Source of the DNA: Agelas oroides
Lineage: Eukaryota; Porifera; Demospongiae; Agelasida; Agelasidae
Length of the DNA stretch: 64,000 nucleotides
Assembly: GCA_949130485.1 (NCBI GenBank)
Contig: OX422187.1
Coordinates: 11,105,398-11,169,397 of the forward strand
Direction: 5' to 3'
In this document: piece after piece, positions 6,100 to 63,865 of the stretch
Layout of the letters: the number at the start of each line of letters is the position of its first letter
Position numbering within the stretch: position 1 is the first letter of the stretch
The notes under the pieces: model-generated
The model's input: the letters and a program-made list of their open reading frames with translations, nothing else
Told to the model about the DNA's origin: nothing
Database searches by the model: none
Position numbers and translations under genes: made by a program

Positions 6100-34510
<28,411 letters not shown>

Positions 34511-37819: not shown

Positions 37820-37887
37820 TAGCCTTGTTCCCAGGCCCTCACACTGCAAGTGACGGGAAGCTGGGTGAGGGCCTGGGAACGAGGCTA
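37820..37887. mobile_element. Foldback MITE, 68 bp, with 9-bp target duplication
   Basis: Begins TAGCCTTGTTCCCAGGCCC and ends GGGCCTGGGAACGAGGCTA. It is flanked by GAAGCTATG (37811-37819) and GAAGTTATG (37888-37896), a 9-bp duplication with one change. Member of the dispersed family described in the findings. Confidence 0.85.
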
Positions 37888-38176
37888 GAAGTTATGTACA
37901 GGAGAGTTAAATTTCATAGTTTCATTTTCAATTTTTGCTTTTGGTTTTGTTGTCTTGCAGCATATTCACAGCATCCATTAATGACAATGCAATAAGTTCA
38001 AGATAACCCCCAAAACGCTCTTCTATGGTGTATGATTAATAAATGGAATAGCCCAAATTTCACCGCATCCAATGAACTGTTCTTTATCTTCAACTTCAGG
38101 TATTTTGAGGACTTTAACTGTTCACTGATCAAGACAACTGCAAAAGTCAGTGAGAGCATCTTCATCTAATGCAAGT

Positions 38177-38368
38177 TCAATACTCAGCTTGGATATAGTG
38201 AAGAATACCTCCAACTGTAGGGGTCACCCCCTCTGTGCAGTGGACATAATCCTTTCCTTTACAATCAATGTTGAAGCAAGCTTGTCCAGTAATGCTGGCT
38301 GCGCAATAGCTAGCTGTAGTGAGTGTATCGTACCGTTCAGTAGCCACACTTTCACATTTTTCAGCCAT
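38177..38368 (-). CDS. Possible small protein, unrecognised
   Basis: A 63-residue frame starting MAEKCESVATERYDTL, cysteine-containing, with no family I recognise. A second stretch in another frame (TISKLSIELALDEDALTD, ending just before 38130) also looks coding-like and follows an acceptor-like CCCCTACAG. The real model may therefore be spliced or frameshifted. It may also be chance. Transcript data are needed to decide. Confidence 0.22.
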   Translation of the reverse strand: MAEKCESVATERYDTLTTASYCAASITGQACFNIDCKGKDYVHCTEGVTPTVGGILHYIQAEY

Positions 38369-38700
38369 GGCTTCCCTGTCGGTTCGTCACGCCCACCACA
38401 ACATCAGCAGTTTCCCAGAATATAAATTAATGATAAATCTCTAACAGGTATGAAAGGTATGCAGCACAACGAAGGTGAAGATATGAAGGAGATAAAAGTG
38501 ACAATAAAATAATCTCATGTTGATGATCGTTCCACTACGAAGGGGTTATTGGTGTGGGTGTGGCCACTGTCGTTGCGTTGATGTGGACAAGGAGGCTGGT
38601 GGTCTTGTCAACATTGTACATTCTTCCGAGCGCATCCTGTGTGCCAATAATAGCACTGTGTGTGTGTGTGTGTGTGTGCGTGTGTGCATGTGTGTGTTAT

Positions 38701-38877
<177 letters not shown>

Positions 38878-39045
38878 TAAATTGTACACCTAGAATTAGC
38901 CTTGTTCCCTTTGTTCCGTAAACACTGGTTCCCAGGGCTCTAACATGTAGCCATTCTTGCTTGCAGTGCTTTTCATACTGCTAGCAATAAAATCTGTGGT
39001 GGAGGCCTGGGATATTATAGGGGCTGGCAGCATGGACTCTCTCTC

Positions 39046-42000
39046 TTACCCCACAATTCCTAGTAAGATGAGGAAGACGTCGAGAATCCTGCCCCAGAAG
39101 CTTGCCTCACTGCAAGAGAGTGAACAGAGAAATGAATCGTTGAACTGGTTAGAGCAAGACATTCATCAGCACAAATGACTGGCGAAGAAGGTCCATGGAT
39201 CAAAAAATTACAGTCCCATTACTGCAACTTCTGAAAGAGCTCACAGAAATTTATCAGTAGATCAAGCAAGTCATGAGATTGGCAAAGGTTTGGTGAGCTC
39301 ACGTCTTAAAAAGTGGAGCCCCTTGTCTTGTACGTAAACAATAGACCTTTATCTGTGCAAAGGAAGGTCCATGGATCGCAGTTCTATAACTGCAAATTTT
39401 GCTACGACAGAACAACTCAAGTTATCAAGTAGATGAAACAAGATGCAAGATTGTCAAGGGTTTGGTTGAGCTCACGTCTTGAACAGTTTCCAGTGGAAGA
39501 TTCCGGGGAGGATGAAGGCCAGCAGGGTACAACAAGAGGACCCCACCAGAGCCATGATGGTGGAGAAGTCCGGGACACATATCATGATTAGACCTGTTAA
39601 TAGCACTAGCAGTGTGCGGAGGATGCACTGTGTGTGAGGGGGTGAGTGGGTGAGGGTGTGTGTGTGCATGTGTGGGAGATAAGATTACAGATATGCATAT
39701 ATAGAAGATCAGCAGCTGTTATTGCTAGTGTATGCAATGATTAGGGGCTTTCCAAAACCACGCCCCCTCCATTAAATTTTCTCCCAGCATCTTGATCTAC
39801 CTACCATAGTTAGTACTCTATGACTGCAGACTGACTTGCAAATTTCAGCTTTATACCATGTTTCATTCGTTGGATATGCAGGCTTCAAGTTTGGAGATTG
39901 GGGCCAGATTAGGGTCCTAGCTATTAAATAGTATGGGAAAACTGAAATTTTGAGTGTGCAGATCTCAGAAACTAAACATGCTATCCAGCTCAAATTTTCA
40001 ACTTAGTCTCTTCCTAATGAGTACTAAGTCATATCTAAAATTCAGGACAATCAGAGGTACTCCCCAAAAGTGGGTGGGTTTTGGAAAGCCCCTATTATCC
40101 CTAACAAATGACACATAGAGTTCAGCGGTCAAAAGTCTTTTAGTCTCGTATCAAGACCTCTCCCCCTCCTCTCCTCTTCCCCCTCCTCCTTCCTTCCCTC
40201 CTCCTCTCCCTCCTCCTTCCTTCCCTCCTCCTCTCCTCTCCCCCCTCCTCTTCCTCTCCTTCCCCCACCATCCCAAACCACTACCACCAGTTTCGTCCTC
40301 CCTAGCTCCCCCTACTCCTCCCTAGTTCCCCCTACTCCTCCCTAGCTCCCCCTACTCCTCCCACACACAATTTCGAGGGTCTAGGTTTGAGAGCACATGA
40401 GCACATTTCAGGTAAGTACATTAAAAGTTCTTTTTACCCCCATGATGTAGTTGGTATCAAATCCTGATTGTCTGTGGAATTCCAAGTCATCAGGCGCCTG
40501 CACTGGCTGACACAACATCTTCTCAAGAATCTTGGCAACTGGAAACATCATGACTGCAGAAATGAAAGGTCAAAGGTCAAAGGTTACAGTTGAAATACCC
40601 TTTATTTTAGCGAGGATTAAACATTTGATAATGCGTCTCGCTTTCATTGATTGCAGTATGAAGAGCAATGAAAGAGCTGGGTGCGAGAGTCTGGGAACAA
40701 GGCTGGTTGAGCTTACTGGGATAAGTGAAGAAGAGAGAGAAACAAAGACAACCCTTCACCATGAACGGGAACAGTCCTGTTGAGAGGAAGCAATTCAGTT
40801 AATTTTCTTGCATACTCTTGCATACTCTTGCATACTGTTACATACTGTTGCATTACCACATCCCCACACAGGTGTGGGGTGGAGTGTAATGGACTGTGGC
40901 AGCTCCATCTACAATTAGCACTAGGCTAGGGGAGGCCTGGGAACATGCTTACCACTTGGTAGGTTGAGAGTGATGATACTATCCGTTTTTGGGCCGAAAG
41001 ACTGTGAAGAGAGGAAGGGAGAAAGAGAGAAAGGGGAGAGAGGGGAGAGAGAGAGAGAAAGACCAAGGGAGAGGAGTGAGATGAAGAAGAGGGCACATTG
41101 CAAGAAAGAGAGAAGGGGTTGAGAAAGAGAGGATCAAGGTCTCACCAAATATCCGCAGACTCCGAATACAATGTACAGCAGTGTGGTGCAGACAATGGAA
41201 AGCTTGAAGATCCTAGAGAAGAGGTGATACGCACATCATTACACACAGGCAATCACATGACATCACATGACATCACATGACATCATGGGATATCACATGA
41301 GGTATCACATGAGATATCACACGACATCACATGATCTGAAGGTCTCACCCTCGGAAGCTTCCTCTGAGCTCCTTTGAAACAGATGCCTCCAGCGAGAGAA
41401 TCAGTCCAGCTCCCTGGACAAAGTGAGACACATACAACAAGTTTTAGTATACACATTGAACCACATCTCCCTGTAAACAGACAGGCTTAGATGTGCCCAG
41501 CAATAACACCAAGCTTGCAGCGTCAATATTAATGAAGCTTTTTTCCAACAGTGCTTGTGTGGGGTCTTTACACAACTACACTTGGCCGAGTTTCATTGGG
41601 GGGGGGGGGGGGGGACTGGGATTTCCCCCCTCCCCCAGAAACTTGAAAATTATATTGCCTTAACAGCTACAATAGGGAGCATAATTATAGTATTATAGCT
41701 GAACTTGACGATTTTTGTCCTTAAATATTTCCAGAATATCTAGCGGGTGCACCGACACACGCATGCACATTTCGCACGTATCTACATTCCCTCCCCCCCC
41801 TCCCCCCCCCTCCCCCCCCTCCCAGGAAAATATCCTGTATTAAACCCTGCGCCTGGATACATACCTCATAGCAATAAATAGCCACTCCGAGGTAAAATGG
41901 CAGTCCTTCCAAGGAGAAGTTTTGGATATGAAAACTACACAAATGAGAACACAAATTCATTCAAGTATAGCTCACTGATGATCATATAAGCTAGCCTCGG

Positions 42001-44504
42001 TACCAGGCCTCCCCCGTTTTACCTTCCGTTTGCGTTCACAATAATACGCTTCCGTGTATTATTGTGAACGCAAACGGAAGGTAAAACGGGGGGGGGCCTG
42101 GGAACGAGGCTACATATAAGCAATGCTATTGCATGTTAGGACTAGCTGATCATATAAGCAATGCTATTGTATGTTAGGACTAGCTGATGATCATATATGC
42201 AACACTATTGCTCACTGAATGAGATGAAAGTTTTCCAGGTCAAAGTAGAAGACAATGCCGTAGGCAAAGACAGTGGAGAAGTTAGCAAACACGCTGCGGA
42301 GGAGAGGATCGGAGAAAGTGAGGGAGAAGCAAAAGTGTGTGCATTAGAAGAAGGAAGTGGAGGAGAGGGAAGAGTGGAGTTCAGTAAGGAGGGAGATGTG
42401 ATGCTCAAACATTCAATACAGTAACCCTCACACACTCCCTCTCCCCCATTACACTCGGGTTTATCCTTGTCACTACAATGGTAACCTCACCTGAAGGGAG
42501 CTAGGTGACTGAGGTGTCGAAGGTTTGTGAGAAATATTAGAGGGATGAGGAGAGAGAAGAGATAAGCTAGTCTGTGTGTGTGTGTGTGGAGAAGGGAGGG
42601 AGAGAGGAGGGTGAGGCTACGCATCTGTAGCTGCGATAACTCTCTAGTTCACCACTAGTCCCCCTCACTTACCTAGGAATTATTGGACAGATGCTGTAGA
42701 GGTTATCAACAATGAAAATAAGATACGCACAACAGAAGCCTGCAACAAGAGGAGAGAATTTAGATCAGTATGACAAGATTGCCCCTTCACCAAGATCAGA
42801 ATTGATTGCTAAATGTAAGTCTTCGGTACTGAAGACCAACTGACAAAGGATTGCTCGCATACACAAGCAGTGACATCATAAGATCAAATTGCCAGAGCTT
42901 CTTGGAGAAAATGTTTGAGGTAAGTGTGTAGCAGTTTGTAGGGGGCCCACCTAATTAAAACAAGTTGCAATTGCTTGCATACACATAGGCATTGGATCAG
43001 AGCTTTTTCTAGGAAGAATGTCTGGGAGGAAGTAGTGGAGGGTGGTGTGGCAGGTTTGCTCACTGTTAATACTCAATTTCTACATATTTTGTTGCTCAAA
43101 TATTTTCTAAGCAGTACCTGAGTCATTATGGTGTTTGGGGGTGGAGCTAGACTACTTGGGAGGGTTTACTGACTCACCAACTTGGGAGATAATGATGGAG
43201 ATGTCCACCAGGACTTTTCCTGATGCTCCAAGAGCTGCATATCCTGTAGAAAGAGGAGCCATCAACCTACACTGCCCCAACTATCAATGAACCACATCAC
43301 CCTCTTAACTTAAGGTGAAGAGCAGGCCTATACGCCATACAAAGTCACCCACTGCACAGGACACTGTCTTCTCTACCTTCACAAACCGGCATATACGCAT
43401 GACTTCAACTCATCATCAAATCATAGAGATTTTAGAAAAATTGGCTCCACTCAAAATCATGATTGGACAAAGGGTTGATGAACTACTGTCCATTTCTAGG
43501 CTCTAGAAAATGGAGGCATTCATTTCACTGCTTAATAAAATCGTGAACACAACGGGTGTGTAAGTCTGTTAGTAGATTATCAAGAGCACTATTATATTCT
43601 CCATTACTATATGACGTACCTACATCACCATAGTCAATGTATGAGGAGCCATGGCCATTATTGACAGGGCTAGCAGTCTGTAAAAACAAAACAGGAGAGG
43701 GAGTAGTAACAAGAGTATGGGAGTAATTTGCATAATTCTCCCACTCTGCCATACACAGTACAAGAACATTATGGTCAGCTACTCACTCCATTAGCAAGTT
43801 TCTTTCTTCCTTTCTCTGCACTGTTGAGCACAGAAGAAATGGAAGCTTGGAGAAGGATCCTGTCCTTGCAGTCTATCAGTAACAACATTGCCTTTACACT
43901 GTGTGTGGGAGGGTGTGTGTGTGTGTGTGTGTGAGGATGGGAAGGAATGGAGGAGAGAGAACGGAAAAGAAAACCAAAGGGTATGTCTCCTTATCATTGG
44001 TAGGTACATGTAATCATTGCCATGACAACACTGACCTTATGGCTCCAACCACTGTCATAATCACAATTCCTTCGATGAGACCAGCCTGGTGTGTGTGTGT
44101 GTGTGCGTGCATGAACAATAGTACCTCTAGGCTATAGTGTTTGTCCAAATTAATCTTAATAATATGAATGAGTCACAAAACGCTCCATGCTAATTCCCGG
44201 CAGGCTTACAACTAAAATCCTTCCTATGAAGATCAAAACTACAAATTATTCTCCTGCCCCATTAATCCCAATCCCAGTTCCCTCACCCCCTATTCTGATC
44301 TCTACTACAACTATGCACCTCTTTGAAAGCATAAGGGAGTCCCAGGATCCCAGCTCCAATGAAGGATATGAAGATATTGGCAAATATCTTGACATGACTA
44401 TTCGTTCCTTCATCATTCATCTCACTCAGTTCAGCTCTCTGGAAATCTTTGAAAGATCTTACAGTGAAAGGTAGATCTACGTCCGTGAGAGATCGTTTCT
44501 TCAC
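39046..44504 (-). CDS. SLC36/AVT-type amino-acid transporter, 15 exons
   Basis: A multi-pass amino-acid/proton transporter of the AAAP family. Exons on the minus strand: 44319-44504, 44036-44085, 43787-43898, 43620-43677, 43178-43243, 42673-42739, 42491-42571, 42216-42293, 41865-41934, 41349-41413, 41146-41212, 40953-41001, 40438-40553, 39476-39627 and 39050-39109. An in-frame TAA lies at 39046-39048. The sum is 1281 nt (426 residues) and all phases agree. The first exon reads ANIFISFIGAGILGLPYAFKE, split as in the PAT/AVT first helix. Later landmarks are VKAMLLLIDCK, GKVLVDISIIISQVG, FYLGVAIYCYEGAGLILSLE and DSIITLNLPSG (cf. SITLNLP of SLC36). It probably exports amino acids from lysosomes or takes them up with protons. 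The last membrane helix is cut short by the TAA directly at the donor-like GGGGTAAGAG, so one more exon is possible. Confidence 0.88.
39742..40094. mobile_element. MITE with 18-bp inverted ends in a transporter intron
   Basis: The left end TAGGGGCTTTCCAAAACC and right end GGTTTTGGAAAGCCCCTA are inverted copies about 350 bp apart. The ends read TA-GGGGC and GCCCC-TA, so a TA target as used by Tc1/mariner elements is possible. No transposase is encoded. Confidence 0.75.
40140..40375. repeat. Pyrimidine-rich tract with short tandem repeats
   Basis: A C/T-rich stretch that includes three copies of the unit CCTAGYTCCCCCTACTCCTC (about 40302-40362). It is intronic in the transporter gene. Confidence 0.8.
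41250..41335. repeat. Tandem repeat of about 10 bp, CATCACATGA type
   Basis: Several copies of ACATCACATG/GATATCACATGA in an intron of the transporter gene. A related word set (ATCACATGAC, ATCAAATGAC) occurs near 16050-16090. Confidence 0.75.
41992..42112. mobile_element. Foldback MITE, 121 bp near-perfect palindrome with 9-bp target duplication
   Basis: Starts TAGCCTCGGTACCAGGCC and ends GGCCTGGGAACGAGGCTA, with long matching arms through GTTTTACCTTCCGTTTGCG. The flanks CATATAAGC (41983-41991) and CATATAAGC (42113-42121) are identical 9-bp duplications. It lies in a transporter intron. Confidence 0.92.
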
Positions 44505-44656
44505 AACAGCAGATTATACCAGTAATTGGTCTTTAAGTTCTTTGTCGACGTTTTATTGATAGGCGTTAATTGGAATTAATAAGCTCTCTTGCGCACGTGA
44601 TTGCACAATGCGAACACGTGCTTTTCTTTTTCTCTAGCAACGCCACGGGGCACACA
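44505..44656. promoter_or_regulatory. Bidirectional promoter with two CACGTG E-boxes
   Basis: A 152-bp gap between divergent ATGs (44504 minus, 44657 plus). Palindromic CACGTG occurs at 44594-44599 and 44615-44620, 21 bp apart (two helical turns). bHLH-zipper factors of the USF, MYC and MiT/TFE groups bind CACGTG. The last group controls lysosomal genes, which would suit the transporter. Confidence 0.55.
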
Positions 44657-47452
44657 ATGGCCGCCAGCTGCAGACGTTTGACCACTCTCCTCAGCAGAAC
44701 GAGGCCCATCAGATGGCGTCACAGCCTCGCGAGAGGTAGAGTAAACTCCCCTGTGGGCAACGGTGAGGGACATACGTACCAATGCAACCGTACAAGACGT
44801 ATACACAATCCACTTTAAGAAAATGTGGGTGGGCCGCGATTCTCTGTCACAAAATAGAACTAATGTAGTGAGTTTACTTCTAGCTGAGGTGCAATGCTTT
44901 GAATTAGTTTCTCACTTCTTTAGATCTGTAAATGTGGCTAGGTAATTTTGAGTTATTGGGGGCTTGTTTCTGATTTTGCAATAGGATGCGTAACCTGGAC
45001 CAAGAGTGCATAAGAACGGGCAGCTAGAGTAAGAGCGTGTAACTCCAATAGAAGCCCGTAGTCTGGTCAAAATTACTGAACCGTACTAAAAATAGAACAC
45101 CTGGTCGTGCTTAGCAACAAAAGCTTATGTCTACATGCAGCTGCACATATGTGTTACTATTTTTAGTATTGGGGGTAAATTCCGACTGGTTTCTAATTTT
45201 ACGGAGTTACACGCTCTTTCTCTAGCCGCCCGTTTTTATGCGCTCTTGCCTGGACCAATATTGCATCATTCTCATACACACATTAAAACGCTTAACCCTC
45301 ATTCCATGACCTTCTAACCCAGCGTTTGTTGCTTGCTGTACTGAATGTTTCTGCCTGCATTTGAGTATATGATTTTCCACATACTCACTGCCATTTTGTA
45401 GAGCAGTAGAATAGCAGTAATGTTCACGTGGACCCCTTGTTGGCTCCCTACCGGCAATACTGACAGCTGGATCGCTTAGTGGCTCACATATGTTACAAGG
45501 CTAATAGCAATGTATGTCGTACTGCAGTGATTTTAGATGCGGCTCATGGTAGTGTTCAGCAGCCAGCTAACAACCTCATTGCTGTATAAACTTGTCGTTC
45601 ACAGAGCCATTTTTGCCCTACAGTACGTCATCAGAATACTGACGCCACAGCCTGTGATGTCACTGCCACTTGTAACCATGCCCATTTAGGCACACAGTCT
45701 ATATAGAAACACTAAGTTTCTAGTCAATGCATACACCTTTTATATGTATACGTTAAAATTTTTTGCAGTGGATAAATTTTCATGTATTTCGCGAGTTAAC
45801 CTGTATCATGAATATTCCAATACAAACAGTATGTCACAAACAACTGTTTCTACTTGTCTCAGTTTGTGGCTCAGGTGTGCATGTGCTGACAGCCCCACTA
45901 TCTGTCAGTTGTCAGCGGCTACACCCTACAACAACCACCACTACGCCAGATGGTCCTGTGAATGGCGGAAACGTCTTCAAAAGAGTTTGGAGGTGGTTAA
46001 ATGAGGATGTGACTCCCAAAGAGGTGAGGAGGTAGTCCCTGGTAATTAACCACTTATGGAAATGTACACGAAGACTTCAGTATGTTGAAAGGTGTGCATT
46101 GTCATGACAATATAATGTGTTGTTTCAAGTACATCATGCAGTGAATACTGTGATATGCTCCTTGTAACCGACAGTTGATTTGTTCTATAGATTATCATGG
46201 ATCATGAAGAAAGAGAAGAAAGAGAGGCGCTATTACAACGAGTAAGTTCCACAACTATAGCTAGCTTAGTAGTATTCAACTCTTGATGACACCATATTCA
46301 ATTGTCAGATCTATTCCCCCCCAAAAAGACAACTTTATGGAGTCTGTATCACAGGTATTCTGTCTACTGCATGCAGGTCCAGGACATGTATTTTGCCAAG
46401 CCCCCCATCTCCCCTGACCTGGGCTTCTACAAGGAAGTCTTTCAAGCACTCGTAAAGTATAACGACAGGTTGGTCGGTACAACGAGCAACAATAGCCATT
46501 CAGCTTTCAGCCTGTAATGTATGGCCTTCTGCTTGGTCAAAACATTGCCACAATTACATATTTAAGCACTTAAACTGTGTCTAATACACACACACACACA
46601 CACATAGAACTGGTGTCGAGACATTATGGAATATGTTGTCAGAGATGAATGTAATTCCTGATGCGGAGCTTGTAGCACTGGTAAGTTACTTGGTACAGTC
46701 ACTGTTAATTAACCATGACAGCTGTTGCACAATCAGCGTTACCACTCTGAGGTGAGTGTTAGGCGTAGCCAGTGGCCTGATTTGTGTTAATAGTGCAGAA
46801 CTAGGGTGGACACTGATCAATGCAGTGGCAACTATTTACTTATAACTTCGCAACAATGCTGATTTTTTCCACTTGTTACTAACAGCCCCAACAGATTCAG
46901 CCAATTTCCAAGTTATTTGAAAGTAGTACTTTTGTCTTAGTTGAAAACTGGAGGCCGTTTGCTTTCTTCGTTTGAGAAAAAGCTTCGTGTTTGGCAGCCC
47001 TTGGCCAAATCACGATCGCTCATGAAGTAGTACCACCCCTTCCTGCTTTTCCTGGATAGTGATGTAAGTGAAAAGGTGTGGCCTCAACAATTACCACTAA
47101 ATAAGGAGGGGATTTACCCCAGAGCTACTACGCTTCGCTTCGCTTTTTTGCACGTACATTGCCTGTATTACATTTGGATCACACTCACACTATATATGCC
47201 TATTGCGTTGCGTTCAAAGGATAATAAATCAAAGCTGAATGGACATAGAGTGGGAATCATTCTACCACAAAATGGTGGGGGGTTTCTTTTTGTATATGAC
47301 CAGTGACATTTTCAGAGTAAAAATAGCTTTTCAGACTTTTCAACATGTGTTATGAACTCTAGACTACCAATTAGCCTCACAAACTTCAATTTGTGTCTCC
47401 TTAGGTTGAGCCTTATCTGCAGAAGGCACGAAGAAATGCCTGGTTCGAGTAG
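44657..47452 (+). CDS. Small mitochondrial protein with a PPR-like helical pair, 6 exons
   Basis: Exons 44657-44735, 45863-46023, 46191-46241, 46377-46468, 46608-46680 and 47405-47452 join with agreeing phases into 167 residues. The N-terminus MAASCRRLTTLLSRTRP is Arg/Ser/Leu-rich with no acidic residues, as in mitochondrial import signals. The C-terminal half, FYKEVFQALVKYNDRTG followed by WNMLSEMNVIPDAELVALV, resembles a pentatricopeptide-type helix-turn-helix. I do not recognise the family. A role in mitochondrial RNA or ribosome biology is a guess from the PPR-like look alone. It shares a 152-bp promoter with the transporter. Confidence 0.72.
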
Positions 47453-47928
47453 CAGCAGCAGCTAATAGTGCATTCATTATTTATGTTCTGTATAGTGTGT
47501 AGTAATTTATGTTGCCAGTGACATGCTAGCACTATAATAGGTGATTTTGAAAAGGACGAGGTGTGGAAAGTTGGACTGTCATTGACTGATCTGTACATAG
47601 AAAGGTTGCAGATTCTTTCCCACATGAAAAATTGTATACCGTCATGTATGTAAGCAACTCTGAGAACAAGGTTACCATTAATGTAGCCTTGTTATCAGGC
47701 CCCTTGCATGCAAGCTACAATGAAAAATTTGGGTGTGGGTTTGGGCTGACATGTTTTGGCCCTGGATTACCTGACTACCACAATTCTATGGTTTTCTCGG
47801 TCAGTAGCCACTTGTATGAACAAAGGGTGTTGGTGAAGATTTAAGTTCTGCTGCAACAGATTTTTGAATCCACACACTCAATATGGCTGAAAAATGTTAC
47901 ATGTGAGATCATAGCGAAATTTTTCTCA
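47453..47928. other. Spacer between convergent genes
   Basis: Contains the 3' UTRs of the small mitochondrial gene (+) and NUDT6 (-). A degenerate foldback fragment is present near 47682 (TAGCCTTGTTATCAGGCCCC). No gene is seen. Confidence 0.45.
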
Positions 47929-48821: not shown

Positions 48822-48854
<33 letters not shown>

Positions 48855-52900: not shown

Positions 52901-55900
52901 AAAATTTACGGTATATGGCCGCAAGCAGACATACACACGCATCTTGCAATGCAGTCCTGCTAGTGTGGGGCTCGCTCAGGCTCGCCCCAATTAGGAAAAT
53001 AACATCGAAATATTTGCATGTTATATATATCGTACCTACAGTTACACACACATGAAATAATTCTCACTATGGAATGCACTTTCAAATCGAGCCCACAGTT
53101 ATTCTACCAGCTGTTCACAGTGCATGCATGCATGCTTCTAATTCACTTTAGGGCATTTTCATCCCAGTGCCACCCCTACTTGAAAGAGGTATCGATATTG
53201 ATACGTTACTAGATGAATGTCTGAGTATAGCCTCATTCCTAGACTTCTCGTGCACAAGAGTCTGGGAACGAGGCTAGTCTAGGTTGGTATTGATACATTA
53301 CTAGAATAAGATATATAAACACTCATATGAGCAGGTACACACAGGATTAAGATGTGATTTATGCCATATTTGGTCATAATTTGACTATAGGGAACTACAT
53401 TCAATGTCTGAAAACAACCCTAGTTTGTACATTACTTGTGGTCTGTAGTTTCCCAAGCTAATGGGCAAAACACACACCTGATGTTGTGCACCTGGATCAG
53501 TCCATTAGCTGTCACATGTAGTGCTAGCGTGTACTACCAGGTCTATATGCTCAGAACATCTTGCCTCACGCTGCGAAAATAGAGGAAAGTGAAAAGGCCG
53601 GCAGTCACTGGCTGTCGAACCCAGGACACCTCTGGCTTGAGCCGCCAGTGTTCTGCCACTGAGCCATGACAGCCGGACAACCACCAACCCCCACAATCCT
53701 TTATTTGTCTATGTGTTTATACCTCTATTGTTGTTCCATACAGCAACCTCCACTGCCTTCAGAAGCATTGCAGTTTCTACCTTGGTTCAGCAACCTTGAC
53801 AAAGGTGAACATTGGAAGATGAATACTGGGAAATGTACTGTTTCTAGCACTTGTACATACCACAAACAAGAAAATGTCGTTGAACAAGGGAACAGTGGTG
53901 CTTATATACTGTTATCCTCACCCGTTCCTCCACTTTCCCCTTCTCCCCTCCCTCCCTCCTCCCCTTCCCACACAGACTGCCAGCAGCAAGAAATATTACA
54001 GCTGGTTGTGTGCAACTTGGACCAGCGAGAGCTCTACTATTTGGCTACCCTGCTCATGGTGAGACATAGCCTTGTTCCCACGTCTTCCCACCGTCCAGTT
54101 TTTGATCACTTGCAGTATGCAAAAACGGAGGGGGAAGGCCTGGTATATTTTATCACGTGAATGACATCAGTATCTACCTAGGTAGACAGAGGGGGGGAGG
54201 GGTCCCCCATCGAAAGAACGAGCTTGAGGCCTTATCTTGTAGTTTCTGCCCCTAGCGCTGGAGTTTTGAACATTCGCGAAGCGAAAAACATACCGCTTCT
54301 AGTTCAAAACGAAAAACTCGTTCGCAAAATGCGTTCTTCAATGGGGAACCCCTCCCCCCCTCTGTCTGACTAGGTAGACACTGACGTCATTCACATGATA
54401 AAATATACCAGGCCTTCCTCCTCTGTTTTTGCATACTGCAAGCGATCAAAAAACTGGACGGTGGGAAGGCCTGGGAATGAGGCTAGTGAGACAAAGGATA
54501 TAGCCATATCCCCAGTCCTCCACTGACATTATCTCCCCTCCCAGTCACAGCAATACAGGGACTTTATCTCGCAGCTACCAGAGCCTCTGGCCTGCCGAAT
54601 ATTGTCTCTTGTACCACCCAAAGACATTCTCAGACACTGCTGTCGGGTAAGTGGAGTGGAGACAGGATGTGTGTCTGGAGTGCTTATTGTCAGGTATATT
54701 AATGTATTCAGGTATCCCATTCTTGGAATACGAGGTGCAGCAGTGAGCAGCTTTGGAAAACAAAATGCCACCAGGAGAGACTAGGTAATTGGTATGTTCC
54801 TTGTGCCAGGTTAACAATGTGTGTGGGGCCGGGTAGAAGGCCCGAGAACACATGTATAGGTAATGGGTTAGATGGTGTTTGTCTATAGCAGTACCACATA
54901 GGACCTTCAAAAACCAAGGATTAGCCTATGGTCACTGGCTATTTTCACACTGAGTCTATATATGCCTACAGTGGGAGTGGGCAGTCGTTAGTGGCTATTG
55001 TATAGCTGAATGCCTCCTGCACCTCCTCCTGTTTCACCTACACACTCACAAGCCATTCAGCGTGCTTTATTAGCGTGCTCTACACACTCACAAGCCATTC
55101 AGCGTGCTTTATCAGCTGCTCTACACACTCACAAATCCATTCAGCGGCGCTCTACACACTTACAGACTTTAGTGTTTGTCAGTTGGCAGAGGATCAAAAT
55201 GTGAGGATTGCTTGTGCACACACACACACACTCACGCAGGTCTCCCTCTTCATAACTTTCTCTCCTGGAAGGAGCTGTTTATTGATGATCTCAGGCTGAA
55301 GAGAAACTGGCGGAGGGGAAGGTGTGTCACCAACACACTCCAAGGACACACCAAGAAGTAAGAAACATTGCTCATGGAGACAATTACTCAACTACCTGGC
55401 AGTAACAAAGCATTTCTCAATGCACCACCAAGTGTTTTCAACTTCTTCACTTTACCGTTAGATGTTTATGACTGCTAGTGCTCAGAAATCAGCCATGTTC
55501 CCAGGTGTTCCTCCAGTTTTTGATCACTTACAAAAAAAAAACTGGAGATGAGTAAAACCTAGGAACGAGGCCACTCTAGTCAGCTCCTTTGATGACGCAT
55601 CAAAACATCAGCACTGTTTGTCAAAAGTCACTTCCCTAGAGTATTTCTTTCATCTTCAGTACACTCATCATTCCTGAAGAGTATTAGCAGCAACATTGCT
55701 GGTTGCAGGTGACACTGTACTTTACCTTGTTGCTTAGCAACCAAAGCTTTGAATATTATTAAGGTTAAGAAATGTGTGCAGTCAGCCAGAGTTGCTGCCT
55801 AGGCAGGACAAATGGCTCTATAGTGTAAGCTTTGAACACTGATGATAATAGTTAGAGTCATGTAGCACTGGGTTGCTAGGGGTAACAGACAGCAATGTAA

Positions 55901-58900
55901 GTTGTGTTCCACAGATGAAACAATATTCACCTTTTGGGCTCATGCTACAGTGGAACCCTTTGGTTACAAAAACCAATACATTTGATGAGGTATCCTTAAT
56001 TCCTGAAAAAAACTAATACAAATTTTGCAGCATGCAAATATAGTGTAATTTCTGGTTCCATATATCCCCCTCAACAGAGTGCTGTGTGTCAGACTGAAAG
56101 AGAATCTTGCTGCAACCGGCAGTGCTGACAGCACCATTAGGTATATATGTACATGTATGTTTATAGGCAATAGCAATGCTAGCTACAATATCTAGCTAAG
56201 TCTCTAACCCCCCTTCCAAATTAGACACAGAATGTAGCTCTCTGATTGGTCAGATCTTAAGCCTATGTGTAGCCTTGTTTCCAGGCGCACTCGAGCCTAG
56301 GAACGAGGGTAATCTTAGTTTTGTCATTCCACCTAATTTGGCTCAATTAATGTGTCCCACAGTTGATCCCTATCGTCCATCTCCCACACAGAATTTGGAA
56401 TCTTGAAAGCGGAGAATGCCTATGTTCCCTCCAGGGACATTGGGTCGGTACCCATTGTTTGCATTGCTGTCATTCATCACTAATCTCTGTTTTCTGAGCT
56501 TCAAAGGTTTGGAGGAAATGCAAGCTTTGCCAATACAAGGATAGTGTTCCTCTGGGCCCTGCCCTCCAGCTTTTGTCGTTGCTTGAGCTTTTGTTGCTTG
56601 CAGGACAATAGGTGATACTGCCCGGCGTGCATTGTGCATCAAATTGAATCCAAGTCAATTTCATTTTCTCTAACGAACAACTCTGTGAATCAATTCAGAA
56701 CACTACAAAGACTCTGTAGCCACTGTCTCACTTTCATGTTTGCTGTAGCCTCGTACCCAGGCCGCGTGGGAGGAGAAAGACGTCTTTCTTCTCCCACGCG
56801 GCCTGGGTACGAGGCTAATGTTTGCTGGTACTCCTATACATGTATGTATGTATGTATGTGGTTACGTGTCCATGCAGAAGGCGGTGTGGTGTTTGTGTTT
56901 CTATGGGAAGAACTTGCTCATTAGCGGCTCTGGTGATCAATGTATTAAGGTATGCATAACAATTTATTAAGCTGTATGTGTGGTTCTGAAATCATGACGG
57001 AGGTCACTAACCTTTCATCATTGGCTTATTTCAGATCTGGAACATTAAGACTGGGACCTGTGAACGGTGAGATCGCCCAAGTGCATGTCATAAACTCCTA
57101 TGCTGTGTTTACACAGCTGTGGTTTGGTTTTTGTACATGCACTTGCTGTGTCAAAGTACATGCATGCACCTGCTTCAAAGTGCTCATCTTTTTGTGTCAA
57201 AGTGCGCTATTCAGTGCAGACCCCAAGGGTCGAGGAACATGCATATGAAGCTTTATGAGCAGTTCAACAAGAAATGCCTCTGACTTAATGCTTAGGGAGC
57301 AAGTCATCCCATCTCTTGTTTAAAGACTGTGGACAAGTATTATATTCTTGGAACACTTGGCTCAGGTGAAAATAAAGACATACATGTATTATTTATGAGG
57401 TGAAAATAGAGGAAAATAAAAAAATTCAGCGGTTGCCAGGCGGCTCAAGCTAGGAGCCCTGGGTTTCGTGCCCCAGCAATTATTGCTTCCTCTATTTTCA
57501 CCTCATAACATCTAAAGTATTATATTCATACACCCACAGCACTTTGGAGGGCCACAGTGGTACTGTGTGGGCGTTACAGCAAAAGAAGGAGCTTCTCATC
57601 TCAGGAGCTCACGATAAAACGGTACATGTCTAGATCGACTCAGCCTCTAACCATAATGCAGTACAGTAGTTGTATATGTAGTAGAGTTTAAATGATCAAA
57701 TACTTGAAGCACTCAACTGTGGGCCAAAAGATCCCCTGTATATGCAACAGGGAGTTTCAGTATTTTCCCATGAGAAATGGGTTATTCCTTCGGGAGGGAA
57801 TATTAGCCGTAGCAATTCTAGTAACTAGTACTCATCCAGGGATAACAAACAACTTTATGCCATAGGGATGTATACATGTAGTGACCAGATATCCTCATTG
57901 TGATTGAAGTTGTAACCATCATACATTTATTCTTAGAATATGCATCACATAGTACTACATTGGCATTCATACAAGGTGCAATATAGTGTACTCATAGAGC
58001 CTTACCTGCATTGTCTGTGGTATACTGGACTGTTTCAGTCAACCCTGACTGCAACTTTCAGGCTGGCACTTAGTAGCTAAGTACCATACTGAGGTTTGTA
58101 CACAGGAAAGCTGGTATTCATAAATGTGAGTAGGCAAGTGCATGCACCCGCTCAAGCTCCCCCGGCCCTGCAATGTCTTGCAATCATTACTGTCTTCCCA
58201 ATACTATCACCCGCTCAAGCTCCCCCGGCCCTGCAATGTCTTGCAATCATTACTGTCTTCCCAATACTATTGCATCGTGTATTGATATGATCGTGCGATG
58301 AGTTAATGTGTACATGTAGTGCACTTCCGGAAGTAATTTATATTAGCGGAAGTTTTCGTTTCAATGGTCATGAATAACTGTGCACCGTTTAATACTGTTG
58401 CATACTAAGATGGAGATTGGATCGCTGAAAAACGCTATGCAACGCTTCGAGCTGAAAGGCGTGGAGCAGACGGGAGAGGAATTGGGGAAGGGATCGTATG
58501 CGACGGTAGTCGAGGTATTTTACCGAGGATTGCGATGCGCGGCGAGAAAGACGGTGGAGTCGTTTCACCGCGAACGCGTGGGAGATCTACTGGAGCGATT
58601 CGCTAGCGAGTGTTCGATGTTGAGTGGTCTGCGCCATCCACACATTGTGCAGTTCCTGGGCGTCTACTTTGAGCACGGTTTAGACGTCCCCGTGCTAGTG
58701 ATGGAATACCTGCCTGCCACACTGGCCAGCTTCATCGACAATTACGGCGTGTTCCCGGACGAAATCGGCTACGCCGTCCTGCGAGACGTCGCCCTCGGGG
58801 TGACATACCTCCACGGCCATTCGCCGCCGATCGTTCACGGCGATCTCACTGCGAACAATGTGTTGCTCTCATGGGACATGACAGCGAAGATAGCTGACGT

Positions 58901-61900
58901 GGGCGTGGCCCGCATGCTGAATCTTCCGCAGGGGCAAGCTTCCAAGGGTGCTAAAGTTTACCTACCCCCTGAGGCGTTGACGCCAAAACCACAGCACAGC
59001 AGGAAAGTGGACTGCTTCTCATTTGGCATTCTCATGATACACACACTCAGTGCAAGATTCCCAACACACATGGTCGGAAAATCAGTCTCGAGTGAAGCCA
59101 ATGGTGTGGGTGAGTATATTGAAGGCATCAGTTTCAACCACCCCCTCTCAATCCTCATCCTGCAGTGCATCAACAAGCTGCCTCAGCTAAGGCCCGAAAT
59201 TGCTCAGATCCTGGCCACACTCAGTGAAATGATGATGCAATTTCCCCAGCCTTCTTTTGAGAGAAGGATAGAGATCCTACATCGATTGAAAAGTGCACAG
59301 ACAAACTGGAAACAGAAAGTACCAATTATCAGAAAAGATAGCATTGCGACTCTGTCCAACTCGATTGAAATTGAGCACCTAAAACTACAGATTGAAGAGC
59401 TCCAGGTCGAAAACAGGGGACTGCTGAGCTCACTCAGAAAGCAGCAGAACCTTGTCAGTGCCCGGGATCATGAAATGGCTGCTAAACTGATGGCAAAAGA
59501 CCAGGAAATTCTCGCCAAACACCAGGAGCTTTGTGCAAGTGAAGCAGCAGTTGAAGCCTGTCAAGCAACCATCACTGCAAAGGAAGCGACAGTTCAGGGT
59601 CTCACTAAGCAATTGAGGCACCTACAGGACTACATTGCTACCAAACACCAGGTGAGTCGGTGGTCATTTCACCCACTGTCCTGTCTCATTATGACAAGAA
59701 GGGTGTTGTAACGTGACACCTTGTGGTGGCATATAAATGGCCTCTGGTACCATACTACAATTTCACTGTAGCCCATTAGCTGTACTGAATGGTTGATTAG
59801 CAGGACACCACAAAGTATGCAACGGTGCTCAGGGGCGGCGGAACCGGTCCGGCTGGTCCGGTTTTGGCCGGACCACTTTTCGGCGATCAACTAAGTGGTA
59901 ATGAGAGTCGGCAACGTTTGTTTGGAGTTTTTCACTAAACTTGACACATTATATAATTATATATGATTTCTTACACAATACTAGCGTCCTATCACACGTG
60001 TATTGACTGTGCATCTTCATGCTGAGAGCTGCTTCCTGGCAGTTCAATTAACGAAGGTAAAAAAAATTTTCACGCTGCGCAGCCTCCATATTACGAGCTG
60101 GACCACTCCTGAGCTGCTTCCGCCACCCCTGGTGCTCAGCACACTACTTGCATGTATACCTTTGTGCATATGCAAACTACTAGAGATATGACTACATGTA
60201 AGCAAGTAGTTTATCTTCAATTATGCACATATGCATACATATATATCCTATGTAGCCTCATTTGTTGCATCCCAAGGCACAACTAAAATGGAGGCAGTGT
60301 GCCCATCTACCAAGTGCAATGGTGTTTGCTCAGGCAGTCACCATTGGTAAGATGGTCTACTTTGGCAGTGGTACCACTACGATCGGGGAAGCCCCCACAG
60401 ACTGCCCATACAAGATCTTCCGGTACAATTCCTCAAACGACAAGTGGAGCCCAATCGGAGGCTGTCCTGTGGTTGGATTTGGTATGGTCAACTACATGGA
60501 GAAGCTTACCCTAGTGGGTGGCGCTTATGAATCGACAGAGAACACTTCTAACTCACAGTTTGCTTTGACCGGAGATGTTCATGTCTTTGATGAAGAGTCG
60601 AAAGAGTGGATAAAGACGATCCCTGCAATGCCCACCGCCCGCCTTCTTGCAACAGTCATCCAGTATGGTTCTGCCATAGTCTCCTGTGGTGGGATCATTC
60701 TTGATGAGACTCACGACATCTGTGTGAGTACTGTGGAGATATTCGATGGTGAGACCTTGCAGTGGTACAGGGCTGAGCCTCTTCCTCTTGCTTGCAGTGG
60801 TATGACGTGTGCCATAATCCAAGAGAGCTGCTACTTCCTGGGAGGGTTCACAGACACTGATTTCGACCATCCAACAATGATGCTATTCAGTGCATCCCTC
60901 CCTCGGTTGTTTGAAGATGCTGTTGCAAAGCATGGACTTTTGAATGGAAGTCAAGATAGTGAGTCAATCTGGCACACATCCACCGATGCACCTCGCTATG
61001 CTGCCACTGCCGCTAACATGGGTGGATGTCTCCTAGCTCTTGGAGGCAGTGACGAAAAACTGGAGCACAAATCAGGAGCTCTTCATGTCTACTCACCTCT
61101 CACAGACTCATGGCTTCGAATCGATGACATTCCTGTTGAGTGTTTCTCCTGCACAGTCGCCAAGCTTCCCCGAGGGGAGTTAATGATTATGGGCGGGATG
61201 GGCCACAATGAAGATGAAGCCTTGAAAACAGTCTACCGTGGTCGCATCGGTGTAGACTAATCCCTTCTCGTATTCATCAGCACCCTCCACTTTTTTAAGC
61301 CCAGGGTGTGACCCTGTGTGTACTTTCATAATGTGTATATATCCCTCTCAGTTTATCCCTGTTATGTGTTTTTCTTCAGCTTGGTGTTTAGAGTGTTTTG
61401 TGTCAAAACAAAGTTTCCTGCTGGTTTGTAATCACTCTACTTGGGAATCATTTTCAGATTGTCACAATTTGTCACCTTACTATTGAAAGAAGTTTGCGCT
61501 ATCTCGTTTTATGTATGTCCCCCCCTATTACATTCCTGGTATGTACTATTTCAAAGCCTCTGTGCCCGAGTACGTTATCTTGTTTTGAGTGCTTAATGTT
61601 GTGCATTGTAGATGCTTAGTATACCTTTGGCTTGCATATATGTTTTGATAGCAGGCTTTACACACATTCGTTGGTTTAAAATCAACAAAAAATTAGGATT
61701 AGGTTATTTACAGAATAAACAACTTCGCCACTATTGACAGAAGTCAGTCATCTTAAATAACTAGTGTATTTGCAAACATTGGTCAAGGATCAAATTACCC
61801 ACTTCCAAGCCTGTATACCACACTGGGAAGAAACTCTATTCTATAGTGACCTCATTCCATGTGAGAACTTGGGAATGAGGCTAATGTTGCATCAATATCC

Positions 61901-63865
61901 CATCTGATTGAGACCTGAAAGTGCACATCATGTGGAAACAATGGTTCTCCACATTGGCTTCATCATAGGATGTGGCTGCAAGTGTACTATGAACCCTTCC
62001 TAAACAGGATATGACATAAGTCTTGATCTAAACAGGAAGAAGCATGCAGGAAGTGTAACATTATATCATATCATTTTCAAAATGGATTTTCTTAACACTG
62101 TGGACATGTATGTCACATCCCAAGTGCTGGTGTTAACAGTGTGATTGAAGGGTACACTTAGACACCATTTGATTCACATTAAATTGATTGGACACATTAA
62201 TGCCAACAATTAGGCTGCCTGTATACAATGTATGTACTTCAATTGTTAAAGGGTACACTTAGATGACTTGTTTTGGACACAGTTAATTCAATATTGTTTC
62301 TTGATGCCAACAATTAGCCTCCCCATGTACAAGTTGTTGCAGTGTGTACGTCGTAGGGATTCACCCAGTTGATGCAATGTGTGTAGTAAGTACTGTGTGC
62401 AGAAATTCATGTTAAAGGTGTATAGATATTGACTTCATCCTCCTGATTGATGAAACGTTAGCTAAATATCATAGCTGTCTACAAATAATGATGCATACCT
62501 GAGCATGTTGAAGATGTGTCAGTAGAATCACTCCCAGATTGTCATCCTCTTCTACAGGCAGTCGTGTGGGACATTCGCCACTGTGCTCTTGTGTGGAGGT
62601 TGGAGGGCCACCGGGGAGCTGTTTTTGCAGTGGACCTGGACAATCTTGCTAGGATAGCCTTCACTGCATCAGGAGACAAGGTAGAGTATATAGCCAAGGT
62701 AGTCCAGCAGTGCACAAGAGTATAGTCAAGGTAGTTCAGCAATTGCCTTCACCACACTCTAGGGGGTCAAGTAATATTAGAGCAACCTTCAATGTGTGGA
62801 TGTTTGTGGTGTAAACTAAACCCACATATTGAACAGCCGAGTAGGCTATAGCAACATTTATCCTATGATCAGGGTGTACTCTAGCCACTATGTAAACCTG
62901 CTTTATAATAATTGTGTCTAGTTACTACTGTACTTGTATAGACCATAATGTACAGATTTAGCCCAACTCATGCAGAAGCAGAGTCACTGTAGCCTTGTTC
63001 CCAGGCCACTCCCAGAATTTCTCGCAGCCACAGCAGCGAGGTAAATCTGGAAGTAGGAACGAGGCTAGTGTCACTGTTTGCCAATGGTCAAGTCAAGCTT
63101 TTTTGACCACTACCCAAGTACTTAATTTTTCAGCTTTGCATGACACGCTAATCTTGTATTCTCCAGATAGTAAACGGTATATCGAAGTGTTCACTGTTGC
63201 CTTTCCTATCTGCAGACCATCTTGCAATGGAGCATGGAGAGTGGTCACTGTCTCAGGGTGATCAAAGCTAGTGAATCTCACCCCATCATGGCAATGCATT
63301 GGCACAATGTAAGCCATCATCATACAGTTAGTCCTGTTCCCAAACCACCTTCATCCCAGTTCCATACCATGCACTAACTATGACTTACAGTACTAGAGGG
63401 ATATAGGCTGAGAACAAGTCTTGAGTGGGATAGATTTTCTGAAGGTGCATGTACTGTAGCTGGGTGTGATTATATACACTGTTTACTACGATGTGTATAT
63501 GTAGGGTTACTTGGCTAGCAGTGCTGGACATGTGGTTACACTATGGGTTGCCCACAATGGGAGAAAACTGCTTGAGCTGAAAGGACACGAAGACAGGTAT
63601 GAATCAGAAGTTCATGAGGAAAGTAGACAAATGAAACCTATATGTGAGGGCTTTATTTACTATTAAAAGGTAGCAAGGATACCACTAATTAAGGCTTTAC
63701 ATGCACACAGTCATTCCTGCTTCCAAGATGGCTGGGGATCAAATATATATGCCTACTTCTTAGGGTGGAGTCTGTACAGTTGAAGGTGTATGACTGCAAG
63801 AGACATTCAGGGTTGTTACTCAGTGCTAGCAGAGACAAGACAGTCAAGTATTGGGACACTAGGAG
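49998..63865 (+). CDS. F-box/WD40-repeat protein, at least 20 exons, continues past the right edge
   Basis: Traced exons: 49998-50168, 50252-50317, 51031-51162, 51489-51533, about 51946-52076, 52160-52286, 53744-53804, 53976-54058, 54545-54646, 55173-55200, 55240-55357, 56078-56140, 56392-56443, 56878-56949, 57035-57066, 57540-57621, 62558-62680, 63216-63308, 63505-63596 and 63764-63865. The helical region CQQQEILQLVVCNLDQRELY leads into an F-box, DFISQLPEPLACRILSLVPP, then WKELFIDDLRLKRNWRRGRC, the typical bridge to the WD propeller. WD blades follow, e.g. NLLISGSGDQCIKIWN, TLEGHSGTVWALQQKKELLI and ASRDKTVKYWDTR. It would be an SCF ubiquitin-ligase substrate receptor. It looks nearest to the FBXW10 group, but I am not sure. 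Phases fail around 51.9 and 52.3-53.7 kb, so one or two exons are missing there. The gene has no stop inside the window. Confidence 0.82.
50504..50899. mobile_element. Foldback element, 396 bp, with perfect 9-bp target duplication
   Basis: The ends TAGTCTCTCAAGCCCGACCC and GGGTCGGGCTTGCGAGACTA belong to inverted arms of about 80 bp. The flanks CCTCTATAC (50495-50503) and CCTCTATAC (50900-50908) are identical. It lies in intron 2 of the F-box/WD gene. The TAG start and 9-bp duplication are shared with the TAGCCTCG family. Confidence 0.9.
51685..51790 (+). repeat. tRNA-derived SINE-like copy
   Basis: Contains GGCAGCTCAAGCCAGG, then CCTGGGTTTGATTCTCC (B-box-like), then a tail with TTCATTTCCTC. 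It parallels the better copy at 53.6 kb. Intronic in the F-box/WD gene. Confidence 0.6.
53228..53276. mobile_element. Short foldback MITE copy
   Basis: TAGCCTCATTCCTAGAC at the left and GTCTGGGAACGAGGCTA at the right, 49 bp in all. No clear target duplication remains. Confidence 0.7.
53576..53674 (-). repeat. tRNA-derived SINE with intact A and B boxes
   Basis: On the minus strand it begins GGCTGTCATGGCTCAGTGG (A box) and continues with a 5-bp anticodon-like stem CTGGC/GCCAG around the loop GGCTCAA. The B box follows as GGGTTCGACAGCC, then the closing strand GACTGCC, which pairs 6 of 7 with the start. After it comes a TTTTCACTTTCCTCTATTTTC tail, cut at its end, which is shared with other copies. 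The tail and copy number mark it as a SINE, not a working tRNA gene. Confidence 0.75.
54067..54485. mobile_element. Long foldback MITE, 419 bp, inserted at a splice donor
   Basis: Left end TAGCCTTGTTCCCACGTC, right end CTGGGAATGAGGCTA. The two halves are inverted copies almost throughout, including CCAGTTTTTGATCACTTGC against its inverse. The 8-bp duplication GTGAGACA (54059-54066 and 54486-54493) is the splice donor of the exon that ends at 54058. Confidence 0.9.
55036..55165. repeat. Tandem repeat of about 45 bp, 2.5 copies
   Basis: Unit CACACTCACAAGCCATTCAG continuing with CGTGCTTTAT. The third copy is degenerate. It lies directly upstream of the short exon at 55173 and supplies its acceptor region. 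Confidence 0.8.
56746..56817. mobile_element. Foldback MITE, 72-bp perfect hairpin with 10-bp duplication
   Basis: TAGCCTCGTACCCAGGCC to GGCCTGGGTACGAGGCTA with fully matching arms around GACGTC. The flanks ATGTTTGCTG (56736-56745) and ATGTTTGCTG (56818-56827) are identical. Intronic in the F-box/WD gene, 60 bp before the exon at 56878. Confidence 0.93.
57395..57509 (+). repeat. SINE-like copy with inverted tails
   Basis: The tRNA-like core (GGCGGCTCAAGCTAGG, CCTGGGTTTCGTGCCCC) lies between TTATGAGGTGAAAATAGAGG and the inverse CCTCTATTTTCACCTCATAA. It lies in the F-box/WD intron. Confidence 0.65.
58145..58270. repeat. Perfect 63-bp tandem duplication upstream of the kinase-Kelch gene
   Basis: 58145-58207 and 58208-58270 are identical, starting CACCCGCTCAAGCTCCCCCG. 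It ends 139 bp before the kinase ATG, so it may lie in its promoter. Confidence 0.95.
58410..61260 (+). CDS. Protein kinase-coiled coil-Kelch fusion, 2 exons, nested gene
   Basis: Exons 58410-59651 and 60277-61260 give 741 residues; phase is 0 at the join. The kinase (about residues 18-300) has the glycine loop GKGSYATV (26-33), Lys47 in CAARK, Glu67 in SECSML, the catalytic loop HGDLTANN (143-150, Asp145), DVG in place of DFG (163-165) and PPEAL in the APE position. It looks TKL-like and probably active. Residues about 320-410 are a long Glu/Gln/Lys-rich coiled coil. The second exon encodes Kelch repeats, e.g. GKMVYFGSG, YESTENTSN, SCGGIIL, CYFLGGFT, CLLALGGSD and LMIMGGMG. It could be a cytosolic scaffold-kinase whose Kelch propeller chooses partners; that is inference. 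The gene lies on the same strand inside the F-box/WD intron 57622-62557. I chose the ATG at 58410 because nothing upstream offers a better start. Confidence 0.9.
59832..60130. mobile_element. hAT-like MITE, about 300 bp, with 8-bp target duplication
   Basis: The ends GGGGCGGCGGAAC and CTTCCGCCACCCCT are imperfect inverted copies. The flanks GGTGCTCA (59824-59831) and GGTGCTCA (60131-60138) are identical 8-bp duplications, the length used by hAT trans­posons. It fills half of the kinase-Kelch intron. Confidence 0.85.
61261..62557. other. 3' flank of the kinase-Kelch gene within the host intron
   Basis: Contains the probable 3' UTR, with AATAAA at 61714-61719 as a candidate polyadenylation signal, and a degenerate foldback fragment near 61845-61882 ending GGGAATGAGGCTA. 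No further gene is seen before the host exon at 62558. Confidence 0.45.
62990..63067. mobile_element. Foldback MITE with 9-bp target duplication
   Basis: TAGCCTTGTTCCCAGGCC at the left and GGAACGAGGCTA at the right. The flanks GAGTCACTG (62981-62989) and GTGTCACTG (63068-63076) differ at one position. Intronic in the F-box/WD gene. Confidence 0.8.

Follow-up and report, generated by a model that had tools for sequence, protein, structure and literature searches.

Foldback and miniature inverted-repeat elements with a common 17-bp end in the genome of the sponge Agelas oroides

Element copies in a 64-kb window

The stretch of DNA analysed here (the window) comprises 64,000 nucleotides from the sponge Agelas oroides (GenBank assembly GCA_949130485.1, contig OX422187.1, forward-strand positions 11,105,398 to 11,169,397) and is part of contig C5 in a genome of 259.3 Mb and 141 contigs. 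It is populated by inverted-repeat elements whose ends share a 17-mer, TAGCCTCGTTCCCAGGC, which was searched on both strands with the reversed pattern as a control. When up to three mismatches are allowed, this end has 28 matches in the window, whereas shuffling gives 0.09 on average and 2 at most, and nine copies can be called as pairs, six of which are flanked by target duplications. An initial annotation, made by a model from the bare sequence, had named six copies (starting at 37820, 41992, 53228, 54067, 56746 and 62990) as well as many decayed ones. All six lie where it had placed them, and a three-mismatch search of the window finds the 17-bp end near every place that it had named for a decayed copy.

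The copy at 54067..54485 is a long foldback element of 419 bp, with arms of 116 nt (91% complementarity) and an 8-bp duplication, GTGAGACA (8/8). Between its left 17-bp end and an inner module lies a hairpin of the interchangeable kind described below (54084..54137, + strand); the left module, GCCTGG-N9-TCACGTGAATGACATCA, follows at 54138..54169 on the same strand, and the right module, GCCTGG-N9-TCATGTGAATGACGTCA, occupies 54382..54413 on the − strand. Two further copies are near-perfect palindromes, specifically one of 121 bp at 41992..42112 (paired fraction 0.91, duplication CATATAAGC, 9/9) and one of 72 bp at 56746..56817 (paired fraction 0.94, duplication ATGTTTGCTG, 10/10), the latter with the same GTACCC deviation in both of its ends. 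Both halves of the 41992 element match the end of a long element at locus L042, in register and at 79-81% identity. A 38-bp direct repeat, present twice at 42113-42188, starts exactly at the right duplication of this element. Hairpins of 68 bp (37820..37887; duplication GAAGCTATG/GAAGTTATG, GAAG(C/T)TATG, 8/9), 78 bp (62990..63067; duplication GAGTCACTG/GTGTCACTG, G(A/T)GTCACTG, 8/9) and 49 bp (53228..53276) complete the six.

The description of most of these copies as near-perfect palindromes therefore suits the 41992 and 56746 elements, but not the other four, whose paired fractions are 0.68 to 0.78. Five of the six named copies do have flanking duplications, as had been reported; the one at 53228 has no supported duplication (6/9), and one more, ATGCAAAAG (9/9), flanks a 43-bp element with a TAGTCTC-type left end (35451..35493) that had been overlooked. 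A 66-bp decayed copy (35595..35660) and a 42-bp decayed hairpin (56270..56311) are without duplication, and single or decayed ends, each with three mismatches, are located at 7593..7609 (+ strand) and at 23315..23331, 25369..25385 and 61867..61883 (− strand). Further inverted repeats at 50504-50899 (84-nt arms, 94%) and 45001-45248 (46-nt arms, 91%) possibly represent other families of miniature inverted-repeat transposable elements (MITEs).

Abundance, target duplications and folding

Beyond the window, the same end is dispersed across the genome, as had been proposed. At no more than one mismatch it is found at 17,811 forward and 18,547 reverse positions (36,358 in total), against none for the reversed control. 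A density sample made up of the window and 20 stretches taken at even intervals along contig C1 (260,934 readable bases; not wholly blind, since the window was picked because of the end family itself) contains 34 ends at up to one mismatch and 106 at up to three, with 0 and 0 in the control, which scales to about 34,000 and about 105,000 ends per genome. Once five mismatches are allowed, the control gives matches too (199 ends against 26). A related form of the end, TAGTCTCGTNCCCAGAC, exists alongside TAGCCTCGTTCCCAGGC, and perfect-ended inverted pairs with 10-40 bp between the ends number 368 genome-wide, with 0 in the control. One exact match, in the viral contig L052, was taken as chance, as it sits in a long phage-like frame. 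Rfam gave no match within the window, four 13- and 14-mers from the end were not found in the main texts searched, and no publication on this end family was found in a literature search that did not cover subscription papers, supplements and repeat databases.

To tabulate target duplications over 354.5 kb, every left end was joined to the first right end that followed it at no more than 1.5 kb, and the flanks were ignored at this stage. Strong duplications flank 27 of the 79 adjacent inverted pairs when each is counted once (not a genome average, because many of the loci, L001-L030, were chosen for an exact end), far above the shuffled flanks (mean 0.27, maximum 3 in 200 shuffles), although two of these duplications, being CA or TA repeats, are uninformative. 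An earlier count of 29 in 82 pairs (shuffled mean 0.42, maximum 2) had included three pairs twice, from overlapping loci. Exact duplications among the 79 pairs comprise 21 of 9 bp, two of 10 bp and two of 8 bp, plus the CA repeat, which matches at 6, 8, 10 and 12; the TA repeat is one of the 21 nine-bp cases and gives matches at 5 and 7 as well. In another set, which comprises 65 elements and is biased because its pairs were chosen using the flanks, 40 elements score at least 5, and the best fit is 9 bp in 32 of them, 8 bp in four and 10 bp in four. Across 32 nine-mers, with strands pooled, C or G occupies the outer positions at a frequency of 0.68. The 9-bp mode in the pair sets agrees with the Mutator-type duplications that the initial annotation had suggested.

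Duplication length also bears on the superfamily of the transposase. As a rule, hAT elements generate duplications of 8 bp and P elements of 7-8 bp, and Merlin elements, which use an IS1595-type transposase, generate 8-9 bp. If the elements were moved by a transposase from one of these other superfamilies, the 8-bp fits (4/40) would be accommodated, the 8-9 bp of Merlin would suit, and the failure to find an autonomous partner among Mutator-like candidates (detailed below) would be understandable. However, the 8-bp duplication usual for hAT is not what is observed, as 9 bp fits best in 32 of the 40 and 10-bp cases exist, lengths that are nearer to the range of Mutator-like elements (MULEs) than to those of hAT or P, and, judging from duplication length, another superfamily is regarded as unlikely. 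For MULEs, the available part of a published account gives target duplications of 8-11 bp and terminal inverted repeats of 14-500 bp (PMC6446971). The present elements agree on both counts, their inverted ends being 17 bp in the shortest members and about 156 bp in L042.

The elements with duplications are 33 to 637 bp long, plus one of 1371 bp with a nested repeat of about 890 bp, and their interiors tend to fold, with a median paired fraction of 0.685 (0.24 when shuffled) and values of at least 0.6 in 20 of 36 (none when shuffled). Deviations from the 17-mer that are common to both ends of one element are counted 25 times, against 7.4 in shuffles (maximum 17), and 13 times against 4.1 (maximum 12) when elements of the TAGTCTC form are removed. 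Since deviations are shared beyond shuffling, the two ends of each element come as a set. At the same time the ends enclose many unrelated interiors, a point on which the initial annotation is supported. Being short, non-coding and numerous, with inverted ends and target duplications, the elements have the features of MITEs, and the long members alone also have those of foldback elements, i.e. long composite inverted ends around a variable centre.

The elements therefore probably belong to one large superfamily of non-autonomous foldback/MITE elements that is moved in trans by a Mutator-like (MULE-type) transposase. Both the length of the duplications and the inverted ends point to MULEs; as no transposase with these ends was found, the label is MULE-type, as opposed to proven MULE. 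Such a transposase would recognise the 17-bp end, perhaps together with an inner module, and the excised element would be joined to a 9-bp staggered cut.

Composite ends, swappable hairpins and short members

The inner module was studied in a set of 18 long elements with 36 ends (316 to 637 bp, plus the one of 1371 bp; some without duplication). G(C/T)CTGG occurs within the first 140 bases of 25 of these ends (shuffled mean 2.1, maximum 6) and GCCTGGTA in eight (shuffled mean 0.055), and the combination GYCTGG-N9-TCACGTG, with at most one mismatch in TCACGTG, is present in 16 of the 36 ends and in nine of the 18 elements. Among all examined ends at up to three mismatches, 24 cases allow the spacing between GYCTGG and TCACGTG to be measured, and in 18 of them it is 9. 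Conversely, when the inner part is taken as the starting point, 20 places match TCACGTGANTGACRTC at up to two mismatches, of which 15 are preceded by GYCTGG (up to one mismatch) at a distance of exactly 9 bases and 13 by the 17-bp end (up to four mismatches) at 25-130 bases, compared with 130 out of 4000 random positions; the intervening nine bases vary among families. Genome-wide, GCCTGG-N(0-30)-TCACGTGANTGACGTCA has 453 + 473 = 926 exact matches and the control 0. Among the matches listed (n=100, all from contig C1 and not independent, some lying inside a repeated 17-21 kb unit), the spacing is 9 in 98 and 10 in two, and neighbours no more than 3 kb apart point inward in 13 cases, outward in none and in the same direction in one. 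Eleven of the 13 inward neighbours are separated by 233-293 bp, and the other two by 1029 bp (C1:6012439-6013468) and 2235 bp (C1:1746205-1748440). The repeated unit lies in C1:1305884-1433593, where the module recurs eight times on the same strand at intervals of 17.3-21.2 kb, a pattern suggestive of a large tandem duplication.

The outer CCAGGC and the inner GCCTGG are separated by an insert whose sequence varies from family to family and which often folds. Over 19 insert groups, the 5′ and 3′ halves pair better with each other than with swapped partners (sum −185.3 against −136.9, p 0.0002), but the pairing is uneven, since nine of the 19 rank third or better of 18 and six rank tenth or worse. 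The test left out the L008/L042 family through its filter, although the insert of that family visibly folds, and some of the inner GYCTGG matches used may be due to chance. It is conceivable, although unlikely, that the transposase reads CCAGGC on the outside and GCCTGG-N9-TCACGTGA on the inside, requiring between them an insert that can fold but may have almost any sequence, and that swaps of the hairpin give rise to new arm families. No publication that describes such an end, with two sites and a swappable hairpin, was found, again without coverage of subscription papers, supplements and repeat databases. The initial claim that only the ends matter is consequently right as regards the unrelated interiors but too narrow, given the module at fixed spacing in half of the long elements and the in-register match of 17 of 48 short halves to long ends (see below).

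The same data can be approached from the opposite side, namely that several unrelated MITE families with separate partners share the 17-bp end or have converged on it. The 19 insert groups among 32 ends would fit such a situation, as would the nine of 18 long elements that have no module and the long ends of TAGTCTC type, which have no TCACGTG after their inner GTCTGG. Against this, half of the long elements share the module at the 9-bp spacing in spite of different inserts; a common module at a fixed distance disfavours convergence, and separate families appear quite improbable.

The CACGTG/TGACGTCA stretch in the module might be a protein-binding site or a promoter retained from the parent element. 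Alternatively, the ends may have been co-opted as host regulatory or chromatin-architecture sites, which would explain both their number and the presence of this stretch. Sequences in the module do resemble an E-box and a cAMP response element (CRE). The module is mostly located behind an end (13/20 against 130/4000 random positions), however, and is hence explained as a part of the element, so that co-option as host sites is rated as rather doubtful. A precedent for it comes from placozoans, another case of frequent Mutator ends in an early-branching animal, where the consulted part of the report describes a Mutator-end motif that marks the loop anchors of promoter hubs (PMC12221973); the anchor role is documented there, whereas the elements studied here are known from sequence alone.

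How the short members relate to the long ones was addressed with 24 elements of 60-150 bp (duplication score at least 3), which provide 48 halves. Same-strand matches to long ends were obtained for 17 of these halves, every one of them in register, and one half matches on the opposite strand. Arms common to long elements and small hairpins are found in the L008/L042 and 54067/L027/L007 families and partly in the L006/L033 family, and are most simply explained by lost centres. Internal deletion of long foldbacks would leave minimal hairpins that keep both ends and remain mobile, and a deletion route could be offered by the inner GCCTGG of one end, which recurs in direct orientation as the outer GCCTGG of the opposite end.

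Transposition is not the only process that has multiplied the ends, since units containing them also form tandem arrays. Examples are arrays with thirteen starts 49 bases apart (C7:896011-896687) and with steps of 51 (C2:17120219-17120541), 44 (C4:8987566-8988108), 27 (C5:3280537-3281390) and 28 bases (C6:7167630-7168098), as well as a 15-bp minisatellite of the outer end, TAGCCTC(A/G)(C/T)TCCCAG, at about L013:2730-3017. Such arrays, and the almost perfect palindromes with tiny centres (56 bp at L023, and the 56746 copy in the window), are what would be expected if the palindromes arose by local replication or break repair, i.e. fold-back priming. This origin is nevertheless extremely unlikely, as it accounts neither for target duplications far above those of shuffled flanks nor for the same ends at tens of thousands of places, and the inverted 20-bp flanks that would mark the birthplace of a palindrome are nowhere strong among the elements with enough flank (the best, 12/20, is unconvincing).

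A proposed transposase in trans and the closest known systems

Several results weigh against the proposed MULE-type system with a trans-acting transposase. The 25 pairs that lack a duplication are not palindromic inside (median paired fraction 0.03 against 0.06 shuffled; at least 0.6 in 3/21), and therefore many called pairs are decayed or false. Thirty of the 48 short halves match none of the long ends examined, so that an origin by deletion is shown only for part of the swarm. Close pairs of ends in head-to-tail orientation, which serve as a control, number 103 + 206 = 309 against the 368 inward pairs; with a control this large, pair counts alone do not prove transposition. Among the matches listed (n=100), 75 of the head-to-tail places are clustered less than 250 bp apart and 25 are alone, forming 38 distinct places. 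The inner module is absent from half of the long elements (9/18), and the non-independence of the listed modules mentioned above is a further point. In addition, the arms of the query copy of the L047 family are 88% alike, which is no more than whole copies are (86-89%), and there is no sign of arm-to-arm copying in this family.

A further point concerns the autonomous partner. Models for the MULE domain, FLYWCH and the Pfam Mutator family (PF20700) match the genome at least 119 times (150 of 194 candidates scored), 58 times and 44 times, respectively, but no transposase bounded by the studied ends was found, and three MULE loci, each read in part, are without them. Of the claim that one autonomous element mobilises all copies, the shared ends around unrelated interiors are supported, but a single driver is not. 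The first of the three loci (L051:1343-5501, contig C20) belongs to a very young MULE family, of which seven further copies (about 4 kb, 99-100% identity) exist and in which the repeat unit starts near L051:1343-1349 and the frames include ALS2CR8, MULE, a sub-threshold SWIM and CXXC. No TAGCC end was seen anywhere in a 5.5-kb stretch that takes in the left but not the right boundary, and as far as read it was rejected as a different family without such an end. By eye, the end of the part read holds an OTU-like stretch.

The other two loci combine FLYWCH and MULE. One (C8:4514551) has no such end in 1.4 kb upstream, and the other (C1:12995068) has no TAGCC end in the 951 and 1301 flank bases read; the two share an end of their own, GAGTCATTCCCAGAATG, and both were rejected. 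The C1 locus (C1:12994392-12996078, covered by L054 and L055) is a compact Phantom-like MULE with FLYWCH and MULE in one frame of 453 aa. Its ends, GAGTCATTCCCAGAATG... and GGAAACGTCCCAGAATG..., carry tandem repeats of 15 bp, and a duplication of 8 bp, GTACTCAC, is discernible by eye. Likenesses to the studied elements are the tandem repeats in its ends, this duplication and the end core TCATTCCCAGA, which also occurs in the TAGTCTCATTCCCAGAC form of the studied ends, but it differs in its outer sequence (GAGTC...) and in the flanks, where no TAGCC end was read; the common core may reflect kinship or chance. A third FLYWCH+MULE locus is located at C22:5562019.

On contig C1 (to 27.5 Mb), listed modules have no MULE hit (0/31) in the surrounding 5 kb, which is again unfavourable to the proposed system, and no FLYWCH (0/8) or PF20700 (0/5) hit either. 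Within 10 kb there are one MULE, no FLYWCH and three PF20700 hits (two of four loci), where 6% is expected per random point, and the PF20700 proximity is a weak lead only. Strong PF20700 matches in frames of 887 aa (C3:17121123-17122175) and 886 aa (C8:6482690-6483742) are candidate transposases, going by their predicted sequence.

A parent element was not recovered among longer relatives either. The 1371-bp element at L042 was rejected as parent, as its centre is a separate repeat of about 890 bp (L042: about 4714-5610) with inverted ends CTCAGG...CCTGAG, found at 90-93% identity in at least 39 other places. None of the longer relatives of L047 (637 bp) is split by an insert among the best 40 of 416 candidates. 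For L003 (615 bp) at least two are (C5:7902375-7903510 and C2:20409763-20410762; best 40 of 274 candidates), with inserts of about 400-550 bp that are too short for a transposase. As for other coding matter, six frames that were scanned gave matches of an animal kind, to class C GPCR (G protein-coupled receptor), ASC/ENaC channel, sulfatase, kinase, Kelch and dynein, and in the window a GGGA-rich tandem repeat of about 850 bp (19139-19987) creates long spurious open frames on both strands.

The closest known systems are Tm1 of Meloidogyne and the Tetris foldback/DAIBAM MITE pair of Drosophila virilis. According to the accessible text on Tm1, 61 Mutator/Foldback elements occur in two genomes, with a Phantom-type MULE transposase in one of the elements (PMC3169594). 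Like the sponge elements, those of Tm1 have 9-bp duplications and inverted ends that are composite and vary in length, and they comprise long and short members, with a large class resembling MITEs (PMC3169594). The Tm1 ends, however, are of another sequence, with tandem motifs of about 14 bp and asymmetric tips, and a by-eye comparison saw none of its tip motifs (A1, A2) or 14-bp motif C repeats in the long ends. The two systems also differ in number (61 elements against tens of thousands of ends), in the transposase-bearing member, found for Tm1 and not identified here, and in the interchangeable hairpin with its GCCTGG-N9-TCACGTG module, which that portion of the Tm1 account does not describe (PMC3169594). 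Tetris and DAIBAM, as far as the excerpted description goes, have in common with the sponge elements the shared end tips, with a presumed common autonomous mover, and the expansion of end repeats into satellite arrays (PMC4079207). The arrays of Tetris consist of internal repeats of about 220 bp (PMC4079207), whereas here the end itself or small units containing it (15 bp at L013, 27 to 51 bp elsewhere) are repeated.

The sponge genome thus illustrates the extent that an animal MITE system can reach, with tens of thousands of ends and a multitude of unrelated interiors; half of the long members examined have an end in which a swappable insert is framed by two fixed sites. If it is true that one transposase reads all of these ends, they would amount to a natural experiment on what a Mutator-type transposase requires, and would provide a test case (i) for the origin of hairpin MITEs and (ii) for the way in which transposon ends turn into minisatellites or regulatory sites.

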